This document shows, piece after piece, positions 2,504 through 14,428 of a stretch of DNA of 64,000 bases. Where the stretch lies: positions 62,001 through 126,000 of the forward strand of contig NZ_JASBRQ010000044.1 of NCBI RefSeq assembly GCF_030149425.1, written 5' to 3'. Under the pieces are notes generated by a model that was not told the origin of the DNA, searched no databases, and was given only the letters and a program-made list of their open reading frames with translations. How positions within the stretch are numbered: position 1 is the first letter of the stretch; the number at the start of each line of letters is the position of its first letter. Source of the stretch: Maricaulis sp. GTDB lineage: Bacteria > Pseudomonadota > Alphaproteobacteria > Caulobacterales > Maricaulaceae. The translations under genes and the position numbers were made by a program.

Positions 2504-2807
2504 CGAGGTCACCGAAGCCGGCCGCAAGGCCGGCGCCACCGGGTGTACCGTCATCACCGCTGCCCGCGGTGAAGGCCTCAACCCGCCCAAGACATTCTTC
2601 GGCCTGACCCTGGAAGGACAACGCGATGTTGCCCTCTTCCTGGTCGAAGCTCATATGAGCCGTTCCATCCTCGAAGCCATTGGCGAGGCTGGACAATTTG
2701 ACGATGAGGCAGGCGCAGGGGTCGCCTTCCAGATCGATATCGAGGATGCTGTCGGCCTGTCCAGCCAGCTGCCTGAAATCAAACGAGAGATTGAAGACAA
2801 GATATGA
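2457..2807 (+). CDS. PII-like signalling protein
   Basis: A 116-residue protein with the PII (GlnB/GlnK) ferredoxin-like fold pattern: beta-1 KFKLIIALV, helix KTDEVTEAGRKAGATG, and the C-terminal strand FQIDIEDAVGL corresponding to the PII segment FVFDLEQAIRI. The T-loop region reads GEGLNPPKTFFG, so the uridylylated tyrosine of classical PII is absent, and the ATP-binding TGxxGDG segment is replaced by DEAGAG. Start choice: AAGGAGG at 2441-2447 abuts the ATG at 2448 but lies nine bases before the ATG at 2457, so 2457 is preferred. It probably senses a nucleotide or metabolite and gates the DUF1538 pair, which is inference from the operon. It shares an ATGA overlap with the next gene. Confidence 0.82.
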   Translation: MKFKLIIALVTDEKTDEVTEAGRKAGATGCTVITAARGEGLNPPKTFFGLTLEGQRDVALFLVEAHMSRSILEAIGEAGQFDDEAGAGVAFQIDIEDAVGLSSQLPEIKREIEDKI

Positions 2808-3208
2808 CCGGAACCGATTATGTTCAGGTGCGCGAGGTGATGACCCCCTCGCCCATCGCCATTGACGGCCTGGCGACTGTCGACCAAGCCGTTGATCTCA
2901 TGCGGGAAAAGAATGTCAGCTCGCTGGTCGTCGACAAGCGCGATGAGTCGGACGAGTACGGCATCCTCGCCGTCCATGATGTCGCCGAACAGGTCATTGG
3001 CCAGGACCGCTCTCCCGAGCGTGTCAGCGTTTATGAAATCATGTCCAAACCGGTGCTCAGCGTCGACATCGCCATGAACGTCAAATACGCCGTCCGCCTG
3101 CTGACCCGTTTCCGCCTGACCCGGGCGCTGGTGCTGCAGGACGGCAAGGTTGCCGGCTTTGTCACCCTCCGCGACCTGGTCCTGCGATCCATGGCCAAAC
3201 CCTCGTGA
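2804..3208 (+). CDS. CBS-pair domain protein
   Basis: A 134-residue protein made only of two CBS motifs, about residues 8-63 (VMTPSPIAIDG to VHDVAEQVIGQ) and 73-128 (IMSKPVLSVDI to LRDLVLRSMA). CBS pairs bind adenosine nucleotides and act as allosteric modules. Its overlap with the upstream PII-like gene (ATGA, 2804-2807) and with the downstream crotonase (GTGA, 3205-3208) shows translational coupling. It is likely a second energy-status input for the DUF1538 membrane pair. A free-standing CBS pair could also regulate another enzyme in trans. Confidence 0.88.
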   Translation: MTGTDYVQVREVMTPSPIAIDGLATVDQAVDLMREKNVSSLVVDKRDESDEYGILAVHDVAEQVIGQDRSPERVSVYEIMSKPVLSVDIAMNVKYAVRLLTRFRLTRALVLQDGKVAGFVTLRDLVLRSMAKPS

Positions 3209-4351: not shown

Positions 4352-4420
4352 GCCGGGCGAAAGAAACGGGTGCTCCGGCGAAGCTTTGTTTCCCCCGGAG
4401 CAATAATCACTTCGCCCGGC
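4352..4420 (-). other. Bipartite inverted repeat / RNA hairpin between the Rieske-TPP gene and the GNAT gene
   Basis: Outer arms GCCGGGCGAA (4352-4361) and TTCGCCCGGC (4411-4420) pair perfectly. Nested inside them, TGCTCCGG (4371-4378) pairs with CCGGAGCA (4395-4402). Together they would fold as one long stem with an internal loop and a 16-base apical loop. It sits 18 bases past the stop of the Rieske/TPP gene and 47 bases before the GNAT start. No T-tract follows, so it is not a clear intrinsic terminator; it could be an mRNA-stabilising element or a small dispersed repeat. Confidence 0.6.
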
Positions 4421-4437
4421 TCAATCCTTCAGCACGC

Positions 4438-6423
4438 CTAGACGAGCTCGGCATCGGTCATGATTTCCAGCAGGGCCGGACCGTCATGAGCAAGCGCCTC
4501 GGTCATGGCTGCATCCAGCTCCTCACGGCTTTTCACGGTACGGCCGTAACCGCCGCACGCGCGGGCGAAACCGGCGAAGGTCGGATTGACCAGGCTGGTC
4601 TGCCAGACCGGCCAGTTCCCGGCCCGTTGCTCCTTGGTGATTTTGCCCAGCTGGGCGTTGTTGAGGAGAATGTGGGTGATGTTCATGCCGTATTTCACAG
4701 CGGTGGTGAATTCCATGGCGTATTGGCCGAACCCGCCATCACCGGACACCGAAATTACCTTGCGGTGGCGGTGTTCCTCAAAATCCTGCGTCGCGGCCCA
4801 GGCGCCCATCGCCGCCGGGAAGGCAAACCCGATCGATCCCAGATAGCCTGACATCATCACCCGCTGGCCCTGGGGTTCGAAATAGCGCCCGAAGGAATAA
4901 GTATTATTGCCGACATCAACGGCGATCGCGGCCTCGTCCGGTGCCAGCCGGGTCAGGGCATCGAATACCGCCGCAGCAGCCAGCCCCTGACCGCGGTCTT
5001 CGCCCTGGCGGCGCTTTTTTTCTTCCCGCCAGATGTGCCAGCGTTCCGCCAATTCCTCGCGCTGATCGATGGCAGCGAGCTCACGATTGCTGATGAGATG
5101 ACGAATAATCCCCACCGTGCGCCGGACCTCGCCCCAGACCGGATAGGTAACGGGATGGAATTTGCCCAATTGCATGCGCTCGAAATCAACCTGCACGATC
5201 GGCTTTTTCGGCTCGATCCCGGAATGATTGGAGAAGGACGCCCCAAGCGCGATTATGAGATCGCATTCATTCATGAACCAAGAGGCGATCGGCGTGCCCG
5301 AGCGGCCGACCACGCCAGCGGCGAGTGGGTCACTGTCGGCGATCTGCCCCTTGGCCTTGAAGGTGGTCACCACCGGAGCCCGCAACTCTCGCGCCAGCGC
5401 GGCGATCTGATCCATCCCGTCACGCGCGCCATAGCCGACGATGATCAGCGGGCGCTTGGCCTGGGCGATCGCCTCCGCGGCCGCAGCGACCTCCTCCTGG
5501 GGCGGCGCAATATCGCCGGACGTCAGACGTCCGCGCGGCGCCGCAGCGGCCTGGTCCGAGGGCAGGGTCTGAACATCGTCCGGGAAGATCAGGTGCGCCA
5601 CATCACGCTCGACAATCGCCGTCTTGCAGGCGAGCGAGGCCAGCTCCGCGTGATTGGAGGAGTTCAACACGGGTTGTGAGAAACGGGTGACCGGATCAAA
5701 AGCCGATTTCAGATCGATATCCTGGAAAGCGCCCGGACCGAAGACCTGGACCTGGACCTGGCCGGTCAGAGCCAGAACCGGTGCCCGGTCCACCTTGGCG
5801 TCCCAAAGCCCGGTCAGGAGATTGGTCGCGCCGGGTCCGGCGATGGCCAGACAGGCTGCCGGTTTGCCCGACAGTTTGGCATAGCCGGAACAGGCGAATG
5901 ACGCGGCCCCCTCATGCCGGATGCCGAAATAGGACAGCTCACCGGCTTCCTCGCGCAGGCGCAAGGCATCGGCCAGGCCGAGATTGGAATGCCCGACCAT
6001 GCCGAAGCAGGATTTGATGCCCCAATTGACAAAGGTCTCGGCCATCACATCGGTGACGGTGCGCGCATGCGCGGGCTCCGGCTCGACGCCGACATAAATG
6101 CCATCCTCGCGCACTTCGACCGGATAGGTCTCCTGGCCCGCATCCTCGTGGCCGCCCGGAGGCGCACCGGTGAGCGGATCGAAATCCCAGCCATGCCAGG
6201 GGCAACGCAGCCAGCATTTATCGTCGACGCCCTTTTCGATCGACCCCTCGCCGAGCGGGCCACCCTGGTGCGGACAGTGATTATCCATCGCCGCGTGCTG
6301 ACCGTCGAAATGTACCAGCGCGATAGAATGGGTCCCGGCGGTTGCGGATTTGACCCGGCCCTCAGCCAGTTCATCGCCTTCAGCAACCTTGTGCCAGTCC
6401 AGCTCGGTCTGTGTATCGCTCAC
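4438..6423 (-). CDS. Rieske [2Fe-2S] domain fused to a pyruvate-oxidase-like thiamine diphosphate enzyme
   Basis: A 661-residue fusion. Residues 1-110 form a Rieske ferredoxin domain with ligands Cys50/His52 (CPHQGG) and Cys74/His77 (CPWHGW). From about residue 120 a full acetolactate-synthase/pyruvate-oxidase fold follows: the N-terminal TPP domain with the catalytic glutamate in GIRHEGAA, a central domain with GYGARDGMDQI, and the C-terminal TPP/Mg site GDGGFG ending in LLNN. It probably decarboxylates a 2-oxoacid and passes electrons through its own iron-sulfur cluster; the substrate is unknown. The start chosen is GTG at 6423 because AGGGAG lies just upstream; a longer frame reaches 6462 without a better site. 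It is divergent from the membrane redox operon at 6616. Confidence 0.85.
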   Translation of the reverse strand: MSDTQTELDWHKVAEGDELAEGRVKSATAGTHSIALVHFDGQHAAMDNHCPHQGGPLGEGSIEKGVDDKCWLRCPWHGWDFDPLTGAPPGGHEDAGQETYPVEVREDGIYVGVEPEPAHARTVTDVMAETFVNWGIKSCFGMVGHSNLGLADALRLREEAGELSYFGIRHEGAASFACSGYAKLSGKPAACLAIAGPGATNLLTGLWDAKVDRAPVLALTGQVQVQVFGPGAFQDIDLKSAFDPVTRFSQPVLNSSNHAELASLACKTAIVERDVAHLIFPDDVQTLPSDQAAAAPRGRLTSGDIAPPQEEVAAAAEAIAQAKRPLIIVGYGARDGMDQIAALARELRAPVVTTFKAKGQIADSDPLAAGVVGRSGTPIASWFMNECDLIIALGASFSNHSGIEPKKPIVQVDFERMQLGKFHPVTYPVWGEVRRTVGIIRHLISNRELAAIDQREELAERWHIWREEKKRRQGEDRGQGLAAAAVFDALTRLAPDEAAIAVDVGNNTYSFGRYFEPQGQRVMMSGYLGSIGFAFPAAMGAWAATQDFEEHRHRKVISVSGDGGFGQYAMEFTTAVKYGMNITHILLNNAQLGKITKEQRAGNWPVWQTSLVNPTFAGFARACGGYGRTVKSREELDAAMTEALAHDGPALLEIMTDAELV

Positions 6424-6576
6424 CCGCTTCTCCCTGCGCTTGATTGCCGACCGCTTTAGCATCGGGCGGGCGCGTGCAGACCATCACATCTGGCTCGCGA
6501 AGTCGTCAGGAAACGCGATCACAATTTTCGATGCCCGACTGATTCCGGTAGTTTAGGACCGGTTGGCAGCTTAGCC

Positions 6577-6591
6577 TGACCGCGACGGTCA
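6577..6591. promoter_or_regulatory. Operator-like palindrome in the divergent redox promoter
   Basis: TGACCG-CGA-CGGTCA is a perfect six-base inverted repeat with a three-base centre. It lies 25 bases before the ATG at 6616 in the 192-base gap between the Rieske/TPP gene and the membrane operon. Its location fits a repressor site for the rightward operon. No regulator gene is adjacent, so the binding protein is unknown. Confidence 0.4.
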
Positions 6592-6615
6592 TGACGGCAT
6601 GAAGGGAGACGCATC

Positions 6616-6846
6616 ATGGATCAGGCATTGGCACAGGCCCTATTGGCTTGTCTGGGCCCATACTTCCTCGCCGGGCTGATCTTTGCCCTCGCCTTCGTGA
6701 CGCTGTTGATCAAACGGTTCGATGCAGGTGCCGCCGAGGCCGCGCCGGTCCAGTTCCGGGTCTTGATCTTTCCCGGCGTCATCGCCCTCTGGCCCGTTTT
6801 ATTGCTTACCCTGATCAAGCGTATGACAGTCGGAGGCCGGGCATGA
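6616..6846 (+). CDS. Small two-helix membrane protein, first gene of redox operon
   Basis: A 76-residue hydrophobic protein with two predicted membrane helices, about residues 15-33 (PYFLAGLIFALAFVTLLI) and 48-66 (LIFPGVIALWPVLLLTLI). A well-placed AAGGGAGA precedes the ATG. I do not recognise the family. It overlaps the next small gene by ATGA and opens a four-gene operon, so it is probably a small accessory subunit of the ferric-reductase-like complex, comparable in role to the small subunits of membrane oxidoreductases; this is inferred from position only. Confidence 0.75.
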   Translation: MDQALAQALLACLGPYFLAGLIFALAFVTLLIKRFDAGAAEAAPVQFRVLIFPGVIALWPVLLLTLIKRMTVGGRA

Positions 6847-6992
6847 GACGCGCACACCGCACCGCCCATCTCGTGATCTGGGTCATACTCATCCCGGTCA
6901 TGGCCATTGTCGGCTGGGCCGCTCTCGCGCACAAACCGGTCCCAGCGAACAATGAAGCACTGCCGGCGGCGCTGATCGAGGAGACGCGCTAA
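6843..6992 (+). CDS. Very small single-helix membrane protein, second gene of redox operon
   Basis: A 49-residue protein starting MRRAHRTAHLVIW, with one membrane helix at about residues 9-28 (HLVIWVILIPVMAIVGWAAL) after a basic N-terminus, and a polar tail. Positive-inside topology places the N-terminus in the cytoplasm and the tail in the periplasm. It overlaps the upstream gene by four bases (ATGA) and the downstream gene by one base (TAATG), a strong sign that it is translated. No family is recognised; it is likely a structural subunit. Confidence 0.72.
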   Translation: MRRAHRTAHLVIWVILIPVMAIVGWAALAHKPVPANNEALPAALIEETR

Positions 6993-8050
6993 TGGCGGTC
7001 GGATACAAGGCCGTTATCTGGAACGGCTTCAAGAAGTCCTATCTGTTCAGCCTATGGGCGGTGATCGCCGCCTTCATCGCCAGCTTTGTCATCATGACCA
7101 GCCTGACCCAGCCGGAGGGCGAGAGCTTCCACCCGGTGCAATTGGTCATGCGCGCCTTCGGCTTTGCGGGTTTTGCACTTTTGACCTTCATCCTGATCAT
7201 CGGCCCGATGGCCCGCCTGACCCCGCGCTTCAAACCCTTGCTCTACAATCGCCGCCATATGGGCGTGTCCGCCTTCATCCTGATGCTCATCCACGCCGCC
7301 CTGGTGATGGTCTGGTATCACGGCTTCTCCGACATCAACCCGCTACTTTCGGTGCTGACCACCAATCCGAATTATGACCGGATCGGCGGCTTCCCGTTTG
7401 AAAGCCTGGGACTGGCGGCCTTTCTGATTATCTTCCTGATGGCGGCAACGAGCCATGATTTCTGGCTCGCCAATCTTGGCGCCCCCTTCTGGAAGGCGCT
7501 GCACATGGGTGTCTATTTCGCCTTTGCCCTGTTGGTCGCACACGTCCTGCTGGGCCTGGTCCAGCACGAAAAATCCCCGCTCTACGCTTATTGGGTCCTG
7601 GGCTCGGCAGGGCTGGTCGGCGCCCTGCATCTGATCACCGGCTGGCGCGAGTTTGCCAAGGACCGGCGCACGGGCTTCAAGGCAAAGGATGGCTGGGTCG
7701 AGGTCGGCCCGGCCAGCGACATCCCCAATGACCGCGCTGTTATCGTGCCCGGTGAGGGCCGCGAACGCATCGCGGTGTTCCGCTATGACGGCCAGGTCTC
7801 GGCCATCTCCAACGCCTGCAAACACCAGAACGGCCCGCTCGGCGAGGGCCGCATCGTCAATGGCTGCGTTGTCTGCCCCTGGCATGGGTATGAATACAAG
7901 CCGCGCGATGGCCGTTCTCCGGCGCCCTTCACCGAGAAGGTCGCGACTTACAAGGTCGGGCTGCAAGACGGCATCGTCTTCGTCAACACCAAGGCCCTGC
8001 CGGCCGGCACCGATGTCGAACCGGCTCGCATTGAGGAGGCCCGGGCATGA
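6992..8050 (+). CDS. Ferric-reductase-like transmembrane protein with C-terminal Rieske domain
   Basis: A 352-residue membrane protein. Residues 1-225 contain about six helices of the ferric reductase/cytochrome b type, with candidate haem histidines in RRHMGVSAF, LIHAALVMVWYHG, LHMGVYFAF and LVAHVLLGL. Residues 230-335 are a Rieske domain with ligands Cys276/His278 and Cys295/His298 (CPWHGYEY). The likely role is to move electrons between the membrane haems or quinone pool and the iron-sulfur cluster. The fusion replaces the usual flavin domain of ferric reductases. It overlaps the next gene by four bases. The Rieske/TPP enzyme encoded divergently is an attractive electron donor, which is inference. 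Confidence 0.85.
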   Translation: MAVGYKAVIWNGFKKSYLFSLWAVIAAFIASFVIMTSLTQPEGESFHPVQLVMRAFGFAGFALLTFILIIGPMARLTPRFKPLLYNRRHMGVSAFILMLIHAALVMVWYHGFSDINPLLSVLTTNPNYDRIGGFPFESLGLAAFLIIFLMAATSHDFWLANLGAPFWKALHMGVYFAFALLVAHVLLGLVQHEKSPLYAYWVLGSAGLVGALHLITGWREFAKDRRTGFKAKDGWVEVGPASDIPNDRAVIVPGEGRERIAVFRYDGQVSAISNACKHQNGPLGEGRIVNGCVVCPWHGYEYKPRDGRSPAPFTEKVATYKVGLQDGIVFVNTKALPAGTDVEPARIEEARA

Positions 8051-8826
8051 GCAGGAAGCTTATCCGCGACGAGGATCCGGGCGAGTACTTCGTCGGCTAT
8101 CTCGACGCCCCGAAAGTCGACCGGCGCTATTTGCTTGGTCTTTCGGTTCTGGGCCTGGGCATTGCCGGCGGCGCGGGTGCGTTGCTGGCCAAGAAACAGG
8201 GCGGCGCGGGCCAGGGCAGCTGGGATATGGCAACGCAGGTCACGCTGTCCGGCTATCTCTCCGAAACCCCTTACCCGCTCCTGCGCACCACCGGCCTCGA
8301 CGGCTCGATGCAGACCGTTCTGCTGGCCTGCGACACCAAGTGCGGCGCACAGGAAAAACTCGCCGCCGCCAGCGTCGCGGGTGACCGGGTCAATGTGCGC
8401 GGATCGCTGATCCAGCGCGGCCGCCATGTGATGATGGCCGTCGCCAATGAGGATGACTGGATCAGCGCAGACCAGACCCTGCCCGCACGGCTGACCGGGT
8501 TTGACGAGGAAGACCTCGGCATGGTCGAGCTGAACGGCGAAATCCTCGACAGCAAGTGCTGGTTCGGCGCCATGCGGCCCAATGAAGGGGCCGGACACAA
8601 GGCCTGCGCCATGCTGTGTATCGCCGGCGGTCTCGCCCCCTATTTCTATGCCCGTGACAGGCTTGGCCGCAGCCGGGCCATGATGATCACCGACCCGGAG
8701 GGCCATGCCCTTGTACAGCCAATCCTGCGTTATGTGGCGGACCCTGTGCGGGTCACCGGCCGCGTGCACCGGATCGAGGATCTGCTTCAGCTTCGCCTCG
8801 ACCCGGCGGATCTGACGCGAGTCTAG
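8047..8826 (+). CDS. Membrane-anchored protein with CxxxC pair and C-H-C-C signature
   Basis: A 259-residue protein: a charged N-terminus, one membrane helix at about residues 28-47 with a Gly-rich stretch, then a soluble domain. Notable residues are a CxxxC pair (Cys95/Cys99) and the block Cys171-Trp172, His184, Cys187, Cys191 followed by IAGG. That block looks like a metal, cluster or thiol-redox site; I recall similar motifs only in uncharacterised proteins. The C-terminal part (RVTGRVHRIEDLLQL) resembles an OB-like strand pattern. It is the last gene of the redox operon, overlaps its neighbour by four bases, and meets the convergent serine hydrolase in a CTAG stop overlap. The function is unknown. 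Confidence 0.75.
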   Translation: MSRKLIRDEDPGEYFVGYLDAPKVDRRYLLGLSVLGLGIAGGAGALLAKKQGGAGQGSWDMATQVTLSGYLSETPYPLLRTTGLDGSMQTVLLACDTKCGAQEKLAAASVAGDRVNVRGSLIQRGRHVMMAVANEDDWISADQTLPARLTGFDEEDLGMVELNGEILDSKCWFGAMRPNEGAGHKACAMLCIAGGLAPYFYARDRLGRSRAMMITDPEGHALVQPILRYVADPVRVTGRVHRIEDLLQLRLDPADLTRV

Positions 8827-10087: not shown

Positions 10088-10984
10088 ATGCTCACTGAGG
10101 CCATGATCCCGATCCATGATACCGATGCCGTCTGGGGCGCCTGGCGCGCCCGCTCCAACGCGTTAAGCCGCACACCGCAGGGCTTCGCCGAACGTCTGTC
10201 CGCCTGCCTCGATCTGGGCGTGTCCTGGATCGACCATGCAGACATCTATGATGATGGCGCCGTCGAGAACCTGCATGGCGAGGCTCTGACCCATCTCGAT
10301 GGCGAGCAGGCCCGGCGCCTGCGGGTGATTTCAAAATGCGGGGTCCGGTTTGAAAGTCCGGGCCAGCCCGGTGTCCGCATCGCCCATTATCGTTCCAGTG
10401 CCGATTTCATTACCGCGCAGGCCGAGGCCTCACTCAAGCGATTGCGCGGCGAACGCATCGATCTCTACCTCCTGCACCGGCCCGATTATCTCATGGCCGT
10501 CGAGGAGACGGCGCGCGCCCTGGAGGCACTGGTGTCGAGCGGCAAGGTCGCCTCGGTCGGTATTTCAAACTTCTCCACCCACCAGCTGGCCGGTCTCACC
10601 GAGACGCTGGACCTGCCGCTCACGGCCCATCAGATCGAATTGTCTGTGCTGGCCAATCAAGCACTCGACAGCGGTGTGCTGGAACAGGCCCGGTCACTCA
10701 AGGCGGCCATCCTCGCCTGGTCGCCCTTGGCGGGAGGGGCCCTGTTCGCCGAGGACCGCCCGGTCAATGTCGTGCTCGCCCACCTGGCCGAGCGCGAAGA
10801 GACTGATATGGCCAGTATCGCCCTGGCCTGGCTGCGGCGCATACCCGGACCGGTCATCCCGGTATTGGGGACCATGTCTGTCGAGCGCTTGCAGCAACAG
10901 ATCGAGGGCCTGCGCCGGATCAGTCTTGATGAGCAGGACTGGTATGAAATTCTCCAAGCCGCCCGCGGAGCCCGCGTGCCCTAG
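10088..10984 (+). CDS. Aldo/keto reductase (YdhF-like)
   Basis: A 298-residue NADPH-dependent oxidoreductase. The catalytic tetrad regions are visible: Asp and Tyr in DHADIYDDG, Lys in VISKCGV and His in LLHRPD, plus the nucleotide-binding IPVLGTMSVERL near the C-terminus. Overall order and length match the E. coli YdhF type. The ATG at 10088 has no clear ribosome site; the ATG at 10103 has GAGG too close, so the start is uncertain by five residues. The carbonyl substrate is unknown. It ends in a CTAG overlap with eda, convergent. Confidence 0.87.
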   Translation: MLTEAMIPIHDTDAVWGAWRARSNALSRTPQGFAERLSACLDLGVSWIDHADIYDDGAVENLHGEALTHLDGEQARRLRVISKCGVRFESPGQPGVRIAHYRSSADFITAQAEASLKRLRGERIDLYLLHRPDYLMAVEETARALEALVSSGKVASVGISNFSTHQLAGLTETLDLPLTAHQIELSVLANQALDSGVLEQARSLKAAILAWSPLAGGALFAEDRPVNVVLAHLAEREETDMASIALAWLRRIPGPVIPVLGTMSVERLQQQIEGLRRISLDEQDWYEILQAARGARVP

Positions 10985-11610
10985 GGCTTCATGGCTGCGG
11001 CCCGGCGGGCATTGGCCTCAATCGTATCCCAGTCACCGGCCTCGATCATTTTCGAATTGGCAATCCAGGATCCACCGACGCAGACCACATTGGGCAGAGC
11101 CAGATAGTCCGGTGCCTTTTCTGCGGAGATCGAACCGGTCGGACAGAAGCGAATATCCGGCAAGGGACCGTACAGGGATTTCAGATAGGGCAAGCCGCCC
11201 GCCTGTTCGGCCGGGAAGAATTTCAGCACCTCAAATCCCATCTCGGCCGCCTGCATGGCCTCACCGGCTGTCGCGACGCCGGGCAGGACCGGCAGGCCGA
11301 CTTCAAGCAAGGCCGCGGCAAGCACAGGGGTCAGGCCGGGCGAGACCAGGAAGTCTGCCTTGGCGTCGAGGCAGGCGCGACTTTGATCCCCGGTGCGCAA
11401 CGTGCCCATACCGATAATCAGCTCCGGCCGTGCAGCCTTCATGGCCTGCATCACCTCAAGCGCATTGTCGGTACGCCAGGTCATCTCGATGACTTTCAGC
11501 CCGCCCGAGGCCAGGGCATCCGCCAGCGGCGCGGCGTGGGCGACATCGCCAACGGTCAGCACCGGGATGACCGAAGCCTCATCGATCAGGGTTTGCATCG
11601 AAACAGCCAT
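10981..11610 (-). CDS. eda: 2-keto-3-deoxy-6-phosphogluconate (KDPG) aldolase
   Basis: A 209-residue class I aldolase cleaving KDPG to pyruvate and glyceraldehyde-3-phosphate, the last Entner-Doudoroff step. The Schiff-base lysine lies in EVLKFFPAE, the catalytic glutamate in KVIEMTWRT, and the phosphate site in CPTGSIS and CVGGSWI. MTWRT replaces the more common VTLRT. It is the last gene of zwf-pgl-edd-glk-eda and shares one base with glk (TAATG), showing translational coupling. Confidence 0.96.
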   Translation of the reverse strand: MAVSMQTLIDEASVIPVLTVGDVAHAAPLADALASGGLKVIEMTWRTDNALEVMQAMKAARPELIIGMGTLRTGDQSRACLDAKADFLVSPGLTPVLAAALLEVGLPVLPGVATAGEAMQAAEMGFEVLKFFPAEQAGGLPYLKSLYGPLPDIRFCPTGSISAEKAPDYLALPNVVCVGGSWIANSKMIEAGDWDTIEANARRAAAMKP

Positions 11611-12584
11611 TAAAGGCCTCCAATTTCTGCCAGGGCAGCGGCTCCAAGAAGCGGCGCTGCATCAGACGTAATCATCGAGATCGGGATATCGCCCGCATAG
11701 CGGGTCATCGGGCCCCGGCGGGTGAAGCGCGCGAGGAAGGCGCTGGATTCCAGCAGCGGGCGCATTTTCGGCAGGATACCGCCGCCCAGAAAGACCCCGC
11801 CGCGGGCACCGGCCATGACGGCAACATCACCGGCATAGGCGCCCAATACAGCGCAGAAAAGATTGACCACGCGCCGCGACATGGAGTCCTCGGAGGTGAG
11901 CGCCTCGGCCGTGATCTCTTCCGGCCGGTAGCCCGGCCAGGGTTCGCCATCGATATGGCACAGCGCTCGGTGGATATTGACCAGTCCACGCCCGGACAGA
12001 AGACGCTCCCAGGACACGAAACCGTATTCATCGGCGATGAAACGTCCGACAGCGATTTCCTCCTGGGTCCGCGGCGCAAAGCCCGCATGACCGCCCTCGG
12101 TCGGAACGACGAGAAGATTGCCGTTATGCGGGATCAGAAGTCCGAGACCGAGCCCGGTACCCGGCCCCAGCACCGCATAGGGCGCGCCGGCCTCCGGCTT
12201 GCCCGCATTGAGCGTAACCAGGTCTTCCGACGCGATCAGCGGCGCCCCACGGGCCTGGGCCGCGAAGTCATTGACCGGAAGCAGAGCATCGAGCTGGAGC
12301 TCCTTGGCCAGATCCTCCGGCTTGAACTTCCAGGTCGAATTGGTCAGCCGGATCGTGCTCTGGGCCACCGGGCCTGCGACGGCAAAGCAGCCGCGCTGCG
12401 GCCGCGAGCCCGTACAGCTTTCCAGAAAAGCGTGGGCCGCATCGCGCAGATTCTCGAAATGCTCATTCTTGAGCCGGCGGATCTGCTCCAGCCTGAAGCC
12501 TGCACGCACACTGCCGCGTGCAATGGCAAAGCGCGCATTGGTTCCGCCGATATCGGCGACCAGATAGGACGGCGACGCGCTCAT
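11610..12584 (-). CDS. glk: Glucokinase
   Basis: A 324-residue ATP-dependent glucokinase of the Glk family (not ROK): phosphate-1 motif [12 protein letters not shown] at the N-terminus, sugar site [11 protein letters not shown] with the catalytic Asp in [13 protein letters not shown], and [10 protein letters not shown]. It phosphorylates free glucose, such as that released by the alpha-glucosidases encoded further right, and hands it to Zwf in the same operon. It overlaps edd by four bases (ATGA) and eda by one. Confidence 0.96.
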
Positions 12585-14428
12585 GCTTCTGCCAGGGCCT
12601 TTTGATCGGCCGGAACAGCAAGGTCGGGCATGCTCAACGCCCCGTCCTCGGCCGAAGTCGCAATGGCGCGGAAACCGGCAAACAGCTCGCGGCCCATGCC
12701 CTCGGTGCGCTTGGGCGGCAGCACCGCCACTTCGCGCTCATCGAGATCGACACCTTCCACGCTGAGCTCACCGCTATGGCCGCAGACCTTGACGATATCG
12801 CCGTCGCGAACTTTGCCGATGGCACCGCCCATGGCCGCTTCCGGGCTGACATGGATTGCGGCAGCCACCTTGCCCGATGCGCCGGACATGCGGCCATCCG
12901 TGACCAGGGCCACTTTGAAGCCCTTGTCCTGCAGCGAGCCCAGTGCCGGGGTGAGCTTGTGCAGCTCGGGCATGCCATTGGCCCGGGGCCCCTGGAAGCG
13001 CAGAACGGCGACGAAATCGCGCTCCAGCTCGCCGGCTTTGAACGCCGCCATGAAGTCATCCTGATCATCGAAGACGACCGCCGGCGCTGTGACTGTGCGA
13101 TGTTCCGGTTTGACCGCAGACACCTTGATCACCGCGCGGCCGATCGGCCCGTCGAGCAGGCGCAGACCGCCATCCGGCGAGAAAGGCGCCGCATAGGGGC
13201 GCACGATTTCGGTATCGGCGCTGTCTTCGGTGACCGGTTTCCAGACCAGTTCCTCGCCATCCAGCAGCGGCTGGCTGGCATAGGCCCGAAGTCCGTGCCC
13301 CATCACAGTTTCGACATCCTCGTGCAGCAGACCCGCATCGAGCAGTTCGCGGATGATAAAGCCCAGCCCGCCGGCGGCATGGAAATGGTTCACATCGGCC
13401 GGCCCGTTCGGATAAACGCGGCACATCAGCGGCGTGACACTGGCCAGCTCATCAAAATCGGACCAGTCAATGATGATACCCGCCGCCCGCGCCATGGCGA
13501 TTAGGTGGATGGTGTGGTTGGTCGAACCGCCGGTCGCGTGCAGGCCGATAATCGCGTTGACGATGGCTTTCTCGTCGACAATGTCGCCGATCGCCTGGGC
13601 CCCATCCTCGGCCAGGGCCGCCGCCCGCTGGGCCGCGGCAATGTTGAGGCGCTCGCGCAGCGGGTCGTCGGGATTGATAAAGGCCGTGCCGGGAATGTGC
13701 AGCCCCATGACTTCCATCAGGAGCTGGTTGGAATTGGCCGTACCGTAGAAGGTGCAGGTGCCGGGCGAGTGATAGCTTTTGCTCTCCGCCTCCAGCAACG
13801 CGTCGCGGCCGACCTTGCCCTCGGCAAATAGTTGGCGGACCCGCGCTTTTTCCGGATTGGGCAGCCCCGAGCGCATCGGCCCGGCCGGGACAAAAATCAC
13901 CGGCAGATGACCAAAGCGCAGCGCGCCGATGATGAGACCGGGTACGATCTTGTCGCAAACCCCAAGGCACAAGGCCGCGTCGAACATGTTGTGGGACAGG
14001 GAAACCGCCGTCGACATGGCGATCACATCACGCGAGAACAGGGACAATTCCATGCCCGGCTGACCCTGGGTGACCCCGTCACACATGGCCGGCACACCAC
14101 CCGCAACCTGGCCGACCGCACCAACCTGGTTGAGCGCTTTCTTGATGATCGGCGGATAGGCCGCGAACGGCTGGTGGGCGGACAGCATGTCATTATAGGC
14201 GGTGACGATCCCGACATTGGCCCAGCCGCCATCCTTGAGCGCGCGCTTGTCGGAACCACCGCAGGCGGCAAAACCATGCGCCAGGTTTCCGCACGATAGG
14301 GCCGAGCGATGGCGACCCTCACCGCGGGCCGCCTCGATCATGTCGAGATATTGCCGCCGCGTCGCGGCACTACGTTTCTGGATCCGCTGTGTCACCTCGG
14401 CGACGACATGCTGGGGCGATACACTCAT
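12581..14428 (-). CDS. edd: 6-phosphogluconate dehydratase
   Basis: A 615-residue IlvD/Edd family [4Fe-4S] dehydratase producing KDPG from 6-phosphogluconate. Family blocks in order: [10 protein letters not shown]-type cluster region ([19 protein letters not shown]), [18 protein letters not shown], the [11 protein letters not shown] segment, [12 protein letters not shown], and the C-terminal [12 protein letters not shown]. Length agrees with Edd rather than the shorter IlvD. It starts 31 bases after the pgl stop. Confidence 0.97.

Follow-up and report, generated by a model that had tools for sequence, protein, structure and literature searches.

A candidate Rieske-linked redox module pairing a thiamine pyrophosphate enzyme with a ferric-reductase-domain membrane protein in Maricaulis

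Membrane proteins of the ferric reductase domain (FRD) superfamily include the long forms of the FRE and NOX enzymes, which join a ferric reductase transmembrane domain to a C-terminal electron-input domain and, according to PMC3591440, transfer electrons outward. An FRD architecture bearing a Rieske domain (model M4, for which a flavin mononucleotide (FMN) domain is also listed) appears without a function in a figure legend of the same source. MsrPQ (YedYZ) represents a second arrangement, in which the gene of the membrane FRD protein overlaps the gene of an anchored or exported partner. Among soluble enzymes, PoxB, POX and acetolactate synthase share three thiamine pyrophosphate (TPP) domains, designated N, M and C. 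Features of all these systems meet at one locus of Maricaulis sp., contained in a 64,000-nucleotide stretch of contig NZ_JASBRQ010000044.1 (assembly GCF_030149425.1, positions 62,001 to 126,000), hereafter the window. At this locus, a gene for a Rieske-bearing TPP enzyme faces four membrane-protein genes, here called p76, p49, RieFRE and p259, of which RieFRE encodes an FRD protein carrying a Rieske domain of its own. We tentatively propose that both transcription units constitute one redox module, a Rieske-fed chain that would move electrons outward, a reading that falls a little short of probable. No description of the module was found in the literature searched, which held few subscription papers and no preprints; the FRD–Rieske architecture alone is already known, and its combination with Rieske enzymes and p259 was not found described.

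Gene layout and protein features

The four co-directional genes (6616–8826, + strand) lie opposite the Rieske-TPP gene and overlap by 4, 1 and 4 bases at the p76/p49, p49/RieFRE and RieFRE/p259 junctions, respectively, in agreement with an earlier note, made from the letters of the sequence, which had reported overlaps of one to four bases. That note also placed a shared promoter in the gap between the two units. The divergent gap of 153 bp is real, but a simple scan around it returned no sigma-70-like promoter match, which is not proof of absence. The p49 gene falls under the 50-amino-acid (aa) limit of the open reading frame (ORF) list and was found by direct reading of the sequence. Comparison of the window with a second Maricaulis genome (G007, locus L013) gave ratios of nonsynonymous to synonymous substitution (dN/dS) of 0.05–0.16 for all five genes, and the small ORFs p76 and p49 are therefore real genes. 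The neighbourhood recurs in other genera.

Table 1 Features of the module in the window (first six rows) and related features in other loci, with positions given in the locus named
Feature	Position	Strand	Description
Rieske-TPP enzyme	4438–6462	-	674 aa; ORF list and Pfam
Divergent gap	6463–6615	n/a	153 bp, presumed shared regulatory region
p76	6616–6846	+	Predicted two-helix membrane protein
p49	6843–6992	+	Predicted single-helix membrane protein, 49 aa
RieFRE	6992–8050	+	Six-helix ferric-reductase-domain protein (MsrQ-related) with C-terminal Rieske domain, predicted cytosolic
p259	8047–8826	+	One N-terminal anchor (twin-Arg-like here); DxKCxxGxM...HKxCAxxC motif
Short protein with p259 motif, Cys protein and SCO1/SenC-like cluster	L192 6319–7898; L194 6491–8026; L195 7242–8850; L196 7052–8694		Other alphaproteobacteria
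Antiporter	L069 11231–12487; L133 5790–7154; L143 11882–13264; L145 5067–6266		

RieFRE matches both Ferric_reduct (PF01794, 51.6 bits against a cut-off of 28) and Rieske (56.8 bits) in Pfam, bearing out its earlier description as a ferric-reductase-like protein in which a Rieske domain stands in for the flavin domain. It thus resembles the long FRE and NOX forms in overall plan, but its input domain is a Rieske [2Fe–2S] domain, and no flavin adenine dinucleotide (FAD) domain or domain for reduced nicotinamide adenine dinucleotide (phosphate) (NAD(P)H) was matched in Pfam. Among the loops between its six predicted helices, loops 0, 2 and 6 hold 3, 5 and 6 positive residues, loops 1, 3 and 5 hold none or one, and loop 4 is neutral, a distribution that speaks for a cytosolic location of both the N-terminus and the Rieske domain. 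Five histidines (H89, H101, H155, H171 and H184) and the Rieske ligands C276, H278, C295 and H298 are invariant in 61/61 relatives. H101, H171 and H184 align with histidines of MsrQ and appear to preserve the candidate haem-spanning histidines of transmembrane helices 3 and 5 of the FRD superfamily. By spacing, R87 occupies the first canonical histidine position, recalling YedZ and STEAP, in which that position is replaced according to PMC3591440.

RieFRE also resembles MsrQ, with 28% identity over 195 aa to the genome's own MsrQ-like protein, and the overlap of the RieFRE and p259 genes recalls that of MsrPQ. Unlike MsrPQ, RieFRE carries a Rieske domain and the additional invariant H89, and its partner p259 matches neither a molybdoenzyme nor any other family in Pfam. 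MsrQ proper was rejected as an identity for RieFRE, which scores 44.4 bits against the NCBIfam MsrQ cut-off of 130, and p259 is not the molybdoenzyme MsrP by Pfam. A duplicate of MsrPQ was likewise rejected because an MsrPQ-like pair lies elsewhere in the genome (contig C75; L003 389–2055; MsrP named by eye) and RieFRE falls below the curated cut-off. Among solved structures, the RieFRE Rieske domain is nearest mostly to soluble ferredoxins, with the b6f iron-sulfur subunit 8hn2 also listed. Membership of the operon (as distinct from the genome's own bc1) in a cytochrome bc1/b6f complex was rejected, no cytochrome b/b6 family being among the RieFRE matches.

The earlier note had described p259 as an anchored, Cys/His-rich protein. 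The anchor is predicted here as well, but with 5 Cys and 4 His in 259 aa the protein is not rich in these residues by composition; what distinguishes it is a motif, D168, C171, M176, H184, C187 and C191, invariant in 67/67 aligned relatives. Both alignments, of p259 (67) and of RieFRE (61), consist of hand-picked sequences. In Pfam, p76, p49 and p259 have no match; in NCBIfam, a single chance-level match to p259 (E 0.15) was the only one for the three proteins, and the p259 profile produced two weak matches (E 0.23) among solved structures. The C-terminal domain of p259 also occurs in short proteins of 138–164 aa, and in 4 of the 5 short-protein loci viewed a second Cys-containing protein and a SCO1/SenC-like gene, both named by eye, lie alongside (Table 1), a three-gene cluster possibly concerned with copper handling. 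CopD genes occur near RieFRE and p259 on two Rhizobium plasmids. Together, the Cys, His and Met residues and the SCO1/SenC/CopD context point to copper or thiol chemistry as the likeliest role of p259 outside the membrane. The small proteins also show conservation: at least 85% of 64 sequences keep Y16, G20, R48, G54, L58, W59 and P60 of p76, and the conserved residues of p49 are R3, H5, R6, H9 and W13.

The Rieske-TPP enzyme, also recognized as such in the earlier note, matches TPP_enzyme_N, TPP_enzyme_M and TPP_enzyme_C together with Rieske (58.2 bits, cut-off 20.3). Its N-terminal [2Fe–2S] domain presents the ligands C63-x-H65 ... C87-x2-H90, invariant in 6/6 relatives, and the true start of the gene possibly lies about 16 codons inside the listed one. 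The rest is a full TPP enzyme of the pyruvate-oxidase/acetolactate-synthase type, which has all three TPP domains of PoxB, POX and acetolactate synthase and keeps their RHEG glutamate and GDG...N region invariant in the six relatives; it differs from them in the extra N-terminal Rieske domain. E. coli PoxB is its best solved relative, although the alignment ends at PoxB residue 528 of 572 and the PoxB C-terminal end is lacking. For each of 25 families listed, of the 60 matched, the enzyme scores under the curated NCBIfam cut-off, including the pyruvate oxidases PRK08611 (366.9 against 742) and PRK09124 (284.6 against 792). An oxidative reaction would be expected because of the fused Rieske domain. 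Identity with a housekeeping acetolactate synthase was rejected; the genome has other, distant homologues elsewhere. In L047, the ORF immediately behind the TPP gene (4395–4832) encodes a DUF1622 protein by Pfam, and a DUF1622-type cluster is present in 9 of the 80 loci compared below. ORFs resembling DUF1622 by eye follow the TPP gene in L015 (7853–8251) and, in split form, in genome G004 (L129 7183–7590).

Recurrence of the membrane pair and its enzyme partners

Distribution was assessed in an evenly sampled set of 249 genomes of the order, with limits of E 1e-10 for p259, E 1e-40 for RieFRE, E <=1e-150 for the Rieske-TPP enzyme and E 1e-120 for a further Rieske enzyme introduced below. The p259 and RieFRE genes were each found in 56/249 genomes, and the 56 genomes are identical. 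Beyond this sample, p259 occurs in 8/61 genomes of relatives and RieFRE in 7/398 genomes of a phylum sample (own genome included in both), and in seven additional loci with a full-length p259, drawn from other families of the class (L197–L203), RieFRE always adjoins p259. Five Rhizobium plasmids match both RieFRE and p259, and the three that were viewed have p76- and p49-sized ORFs ahead of RieFRE. A locus set was also compiled by taking, out of 166 relatives, the 80 most similar to the window p259, which biases the set to relatives of the window. Its genes were called by a simple composition-based script that did not call ORFs under 45 aa; the clustered calls comprise p259 in 77 loci, RieFRE in 76, p76 in 63, the further Rieske enzyme in 34, the Rieske-TPP enzyme in 29 and p49 in 24. 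Five of the 80 loci have no match to the RieFRE membrane part (L042, L076, L078, L103 and L114), and in these the locus ends no more than about 510 bases from the p259 start. Most of the loci are alphaproteobacterial and several come from Phycisphaerae; single contigs that carry the label of beta- or gammaproteobacterial metagenome-assembled genomes may be binning errors. In the sampled order, RieFRE and p259 are thus inseparable and form the core of the locus, with p76 usually and p49 often present.

The further enzyme, designated GltS-like, is a Rieske domain fused to Glu_synthase (PF01645, 303 bits). Its gene lies between the TPP and p76 genes in several relatives; in L014–L018 it sits upstream of p76, at the position of the divergent gap. 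Like the ferredoxin-dependent and NADPH forms of glutamate synthase, the protein has an FMN/3Fe–4S synthase domain and a Cys motif (the 3Fe–4S cysteine motif is present in the one sequence compared), but it differs in its fused Rieske domain, and no glutaminase domain was matched. The window's genome holds distant homologues only and not the GltS-like enzyme itself. Identity with a housekeeping glutamate synthase was rejected, distant homologues of glutamate synthase lying elsewhere in the genome.

Both enzymes co-occur with the core. The Rieske-TPP enzyme is present in 31/249 genomes of the order, 28 of them with the core (Fisher 2.8e-18, ignoring phylogeny), and the GltS-like enzyme in 30/249, 27 of them with the core (Fisher 2e-17, likewise ignoring phylogeny). 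The TPP gene lies within 10 kb of p259 in 22/31 TPP genomes. In a phylum sample, the TPP enzyme was found in 4/204 genomes, own included, and the other three (G305, G356 and G438) all have the co-directional operon described below. Gene orders vary across the 80 loci, the commonest layouts being a divergent TPP gene with the GltS-like gene leading the core (23), the GltS-like gene alone upstream (10) and the TPP gene alone in divergent orientation (4). The TPP gene follows p259 in L115, and in L060, L067 and L106 it is the opposite side of p259 that carries enzyme genes. In L141, L143 and L144, from one family, and L145, from another, the GltS-like, p76-like, RieFRE, p259 and TPP genes all run in the same direction, with a small extra ORF ahead of the TPP gene in L143 and L144; L142, from the first of these families, has the core only. 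L199, from a further family, shows the divergent layout of the window, with the GltS-like gene. Where flanks are sufficient (54/80 loci, with a p259 flank of 8 kb or more upstream and 3 kb or more downstream), both enzymes are present in 20 loci, the TPP enzyme only in 5 and the GltS-like enzyme only in 5.

A RieFRE tree of 85 rows, from a quick search with Shimodaira–Hasegawa-like approximate likelihood ratio test (SH-aLRT) support only, was used to follow the two enzymes, with the TPP state known for 70 rows and the GltS-like state for 77. The tree calls for at least 11 changes in TPP presence and at least 10 in GltS-like presence, and enzyme linkage has therefore been made or lost repeatedly. 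The Rieske-TPP and GltS-like enzymes are thus recurrent partners of the core whose linkage has changed many times. Co-occurrence, linkage and the co-directional operons together indicate that the TPP unit and the membrane unit belong together, as the earlier note had proposed from their facing each other in the window. The condition under which that note would have given up the link, homologues of the two units hardly ever adjoining, is contradicted by the 22/31 TPP genomes and by the four co-directional loci.

Proposed electron flow and competing explanations

The preferred reading begins in the cytosol, where the Rieske-TPP enzyme would carry out the oxidative decarboxylation of a 2-oxoacid such as pyruvate; in fuller versions of the module, the FMN/3Fe–4S GltS-like enzyme would oxidise an amino or hydroxy acid. 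The Rieske centres fused to these enzymes would then pass electrons singly to the predicted cytosolic Rieske domain of RieFRE, from where they would cross the membrane via one or two b haems held on invariant histidines. On the outer face, p259 would take up these electrons, and its putative Cys3-His-Met site may bind and reduce copper, iron or a partner thiol, or hand the electrons on. Metal or thiol reduction is the most likely use, judging from the motif and its genomic context, and p76 and p49 may serve as small accessory subunits. The earlier note had drawn a putative chain from a 2-oxoacid by way of TPP enzyme, Rieske and membrane haem to quinone or an exported thiol/metal protein: the link between the units stands, but the chain was incomplete, given that a third Rieske enzyme is often part of the module. 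In its most ambitious form, which is possible yet doubtful, the proposal is of a respiratory or metal/thiol-reducing system across the membrane, not described before, with up to three fused-Rieske proteins (a TPP 2-oxoacid dehydrogenase, an FMN/3Fe–4S amino-acid enzyme and an FRD haem protein) that would swap electrons Rieske-to-Rieske and an iron-sulfur-fed FRD that would export them to a new Cys3-His-Met anchored family. If correct, an iron-sulfur-fed FRD with a dedicated soluble 2-oxoacid enzyme would connect central metabolism with the outer face of the membrane without any need for NAD(P)H. The module lends itself to direct testing, given its small operon, the invariant motif of p259 and the one-to-one pairing of RieFRE with p259, and core-bearing relatives include cultured Parvularcula and Rhizobium strains.

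Several observations weigh against this proposal. The core stands without either enzyme in 24/54 well-flanked loci, and neither enzyme occurs in 23 of the order's 56 genomes with the core; the core must therefore have other donors or another role. The TPP enzyme, cast by the earlier note as donor of the chain, is accordingly a recurrent partner but not an obligatory one. Conversely, 3/31 TPP genomes have no core, and enzymes without the core comprise TPP in G004 and G076, both enzymes in G029, and GltS-like in G024 and G104. In other TPP genomes the gene is on the contig of p259 at a distance of 62 or 116 kb (2 genomes) or on another contig (4 genomes). On the RieFRE tree, a sign test gives no significant joint change of the two enzymes (median p 0.625). 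Rieske-TPP genes are carried by four haloarchaeal plasmids (~60% identity; L204, L205, L209 and L210) and by a Mycobacteroides plasmid (L206, 53% identity), and three of the haloarchaeal plasmids also have the Rieske-GltS-like enzyme at ~60% identity. On plasmids, RieFRE and p259 gave only the five Rhizobium matches at the limits used (p259 query, L144; host chromosomes lay outside the search). The soluble enzymes, present on plasmids on which no core was found, are therefore wider in distribution than the membrane core. As regards the proteins themselves, the SGYLGSIGFAFPAAMGA segment of the Rieske-TPP enzyme is more like acetolactate synthase than PoxB, and its C-terminal segment appears equally acetolactate-synthase-like and oxidase-like. 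Finally, a twin-arginine pattern precedes the p259 anchor in the window and in 47/67 relatives, the remainder including both near misses and anchors without the arginine pair.

Some of these observations would suit a different arrangement, in which the TPP and GltS-like enzymes would work together as a soluble redox pair complete in itself. Oxidation of a 2-oxoacid by the former would drive, via Rieske, reductive FMN/3Fe–4S chemistry in the latter (a pyruvate-driven, glutamate-synthase-like reaction) or the reverse, and the membrane core would be a side branch. We consider this unlikely, although it deserves a hearing. The two enzymes occur together in 23 genomes of the order (Fisher 7e-20, again ignoring phylogeny), and no core was found on the three haloarchaeal plasmids that carry both. 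In G029, where no core was found either, the GltS-like gene has no Rieske match and abuts or overlaps the Rieske-TPP gene, so that one Rieske centre may serve both. Nevertheless, the TPP enzyme occurs without the GltS-like enzyme in the window's own genome and in seven others of the order, the reverse holds in seven, and the frequent adjacency of the membrane pair would be left unexplained.

It is rather improbable that the units are co-selected cargo of a metabolic stress or metal-resistance island, with no direct electron transfer between them. The patchy distribution (8/61 genomes, own included), carriage on plasmids, the recurrence of cation/proton antiporters (17/80 loci together with L133, L143, L145, L206 and L210) and the merA or sulfur-transfer genes of the haloarchaeal plasmids would all fit such an island. 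Against it, the presence of Rieske domains in three different module proteins, the overlapping frames of the core and re-linkage in several orientations suggest a physical or electron-transfer link.

Electrons might also run inward, RieFRE taking them from the quinol pool or the periplasm and delivering them to the cytosolic Rieske enzymes, a direction that seems distinctly improbable. MsrQ-type proteins are able to accept electrons from quinol, and soluble Rieske ferredoxins, to which the RieFRE Rieske domain is mostly nearest, are usually electron donors to enzymes. However, 2-oxoacid decarboxylation yields low-potential electrons, making the outward direction easier. The outward electron movement of FRE and NOX enzymes, described in PMC3591440, argues in the same sense. 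That two unrelated operons were simply joined by the reader is hardly credible, and chance adjacency was rejected: the core alone is common, but the TPP enzyme accompanies it in 28/31 genomes and lies within 10 kb of p259 in 22/31.

Plasmid and chromosomal neighbours

Genes near the plasmid-borne Rieske-TPP enzyme, which shows 53–61% identity, include merA (L204 and L209), genes annotated as dihydrolipoyl dehydrogenase (L205 and L210), DsrE (L204 and L205), TauE/SafE (L205, L209 and L210) and a proton antiporter (L206 and L210). Antiporters beside the module, in 17/80 loci and in L133, L143 and L145, are of the Na_H_Exchanger type (examples in Table 1), and those of L069, L133 and L143 are ~42% identical to one another. 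The archaeal and mycobacterial antiporters align poorly or not at all with these three, and the cross-domain antiporter link is therefore weak.

Near the module, window positions 10981–14428 contain a 2-keto-3-deoxy-6-phosphogluconate (KDPG) aldolase gene (PF01081) followed by glucokinase-like and 6-phosphogluconate-dehydratase-like ORFs, recognized by eye; KDPG aldolase also lies near the module in G007. Six other Maricaulis genomes gave no informative empty site at KDPG aldolase: five have KDPG aldolase only among the window genes searched, and in G004 a TPP gene lies ~9 kb from KDPG aldolase but the core is lacking. Positions 821–2503 of the window encode two neighbouring membrane proteins that look related, and small ORFs come next at 2448–2807 and 2804–3208.

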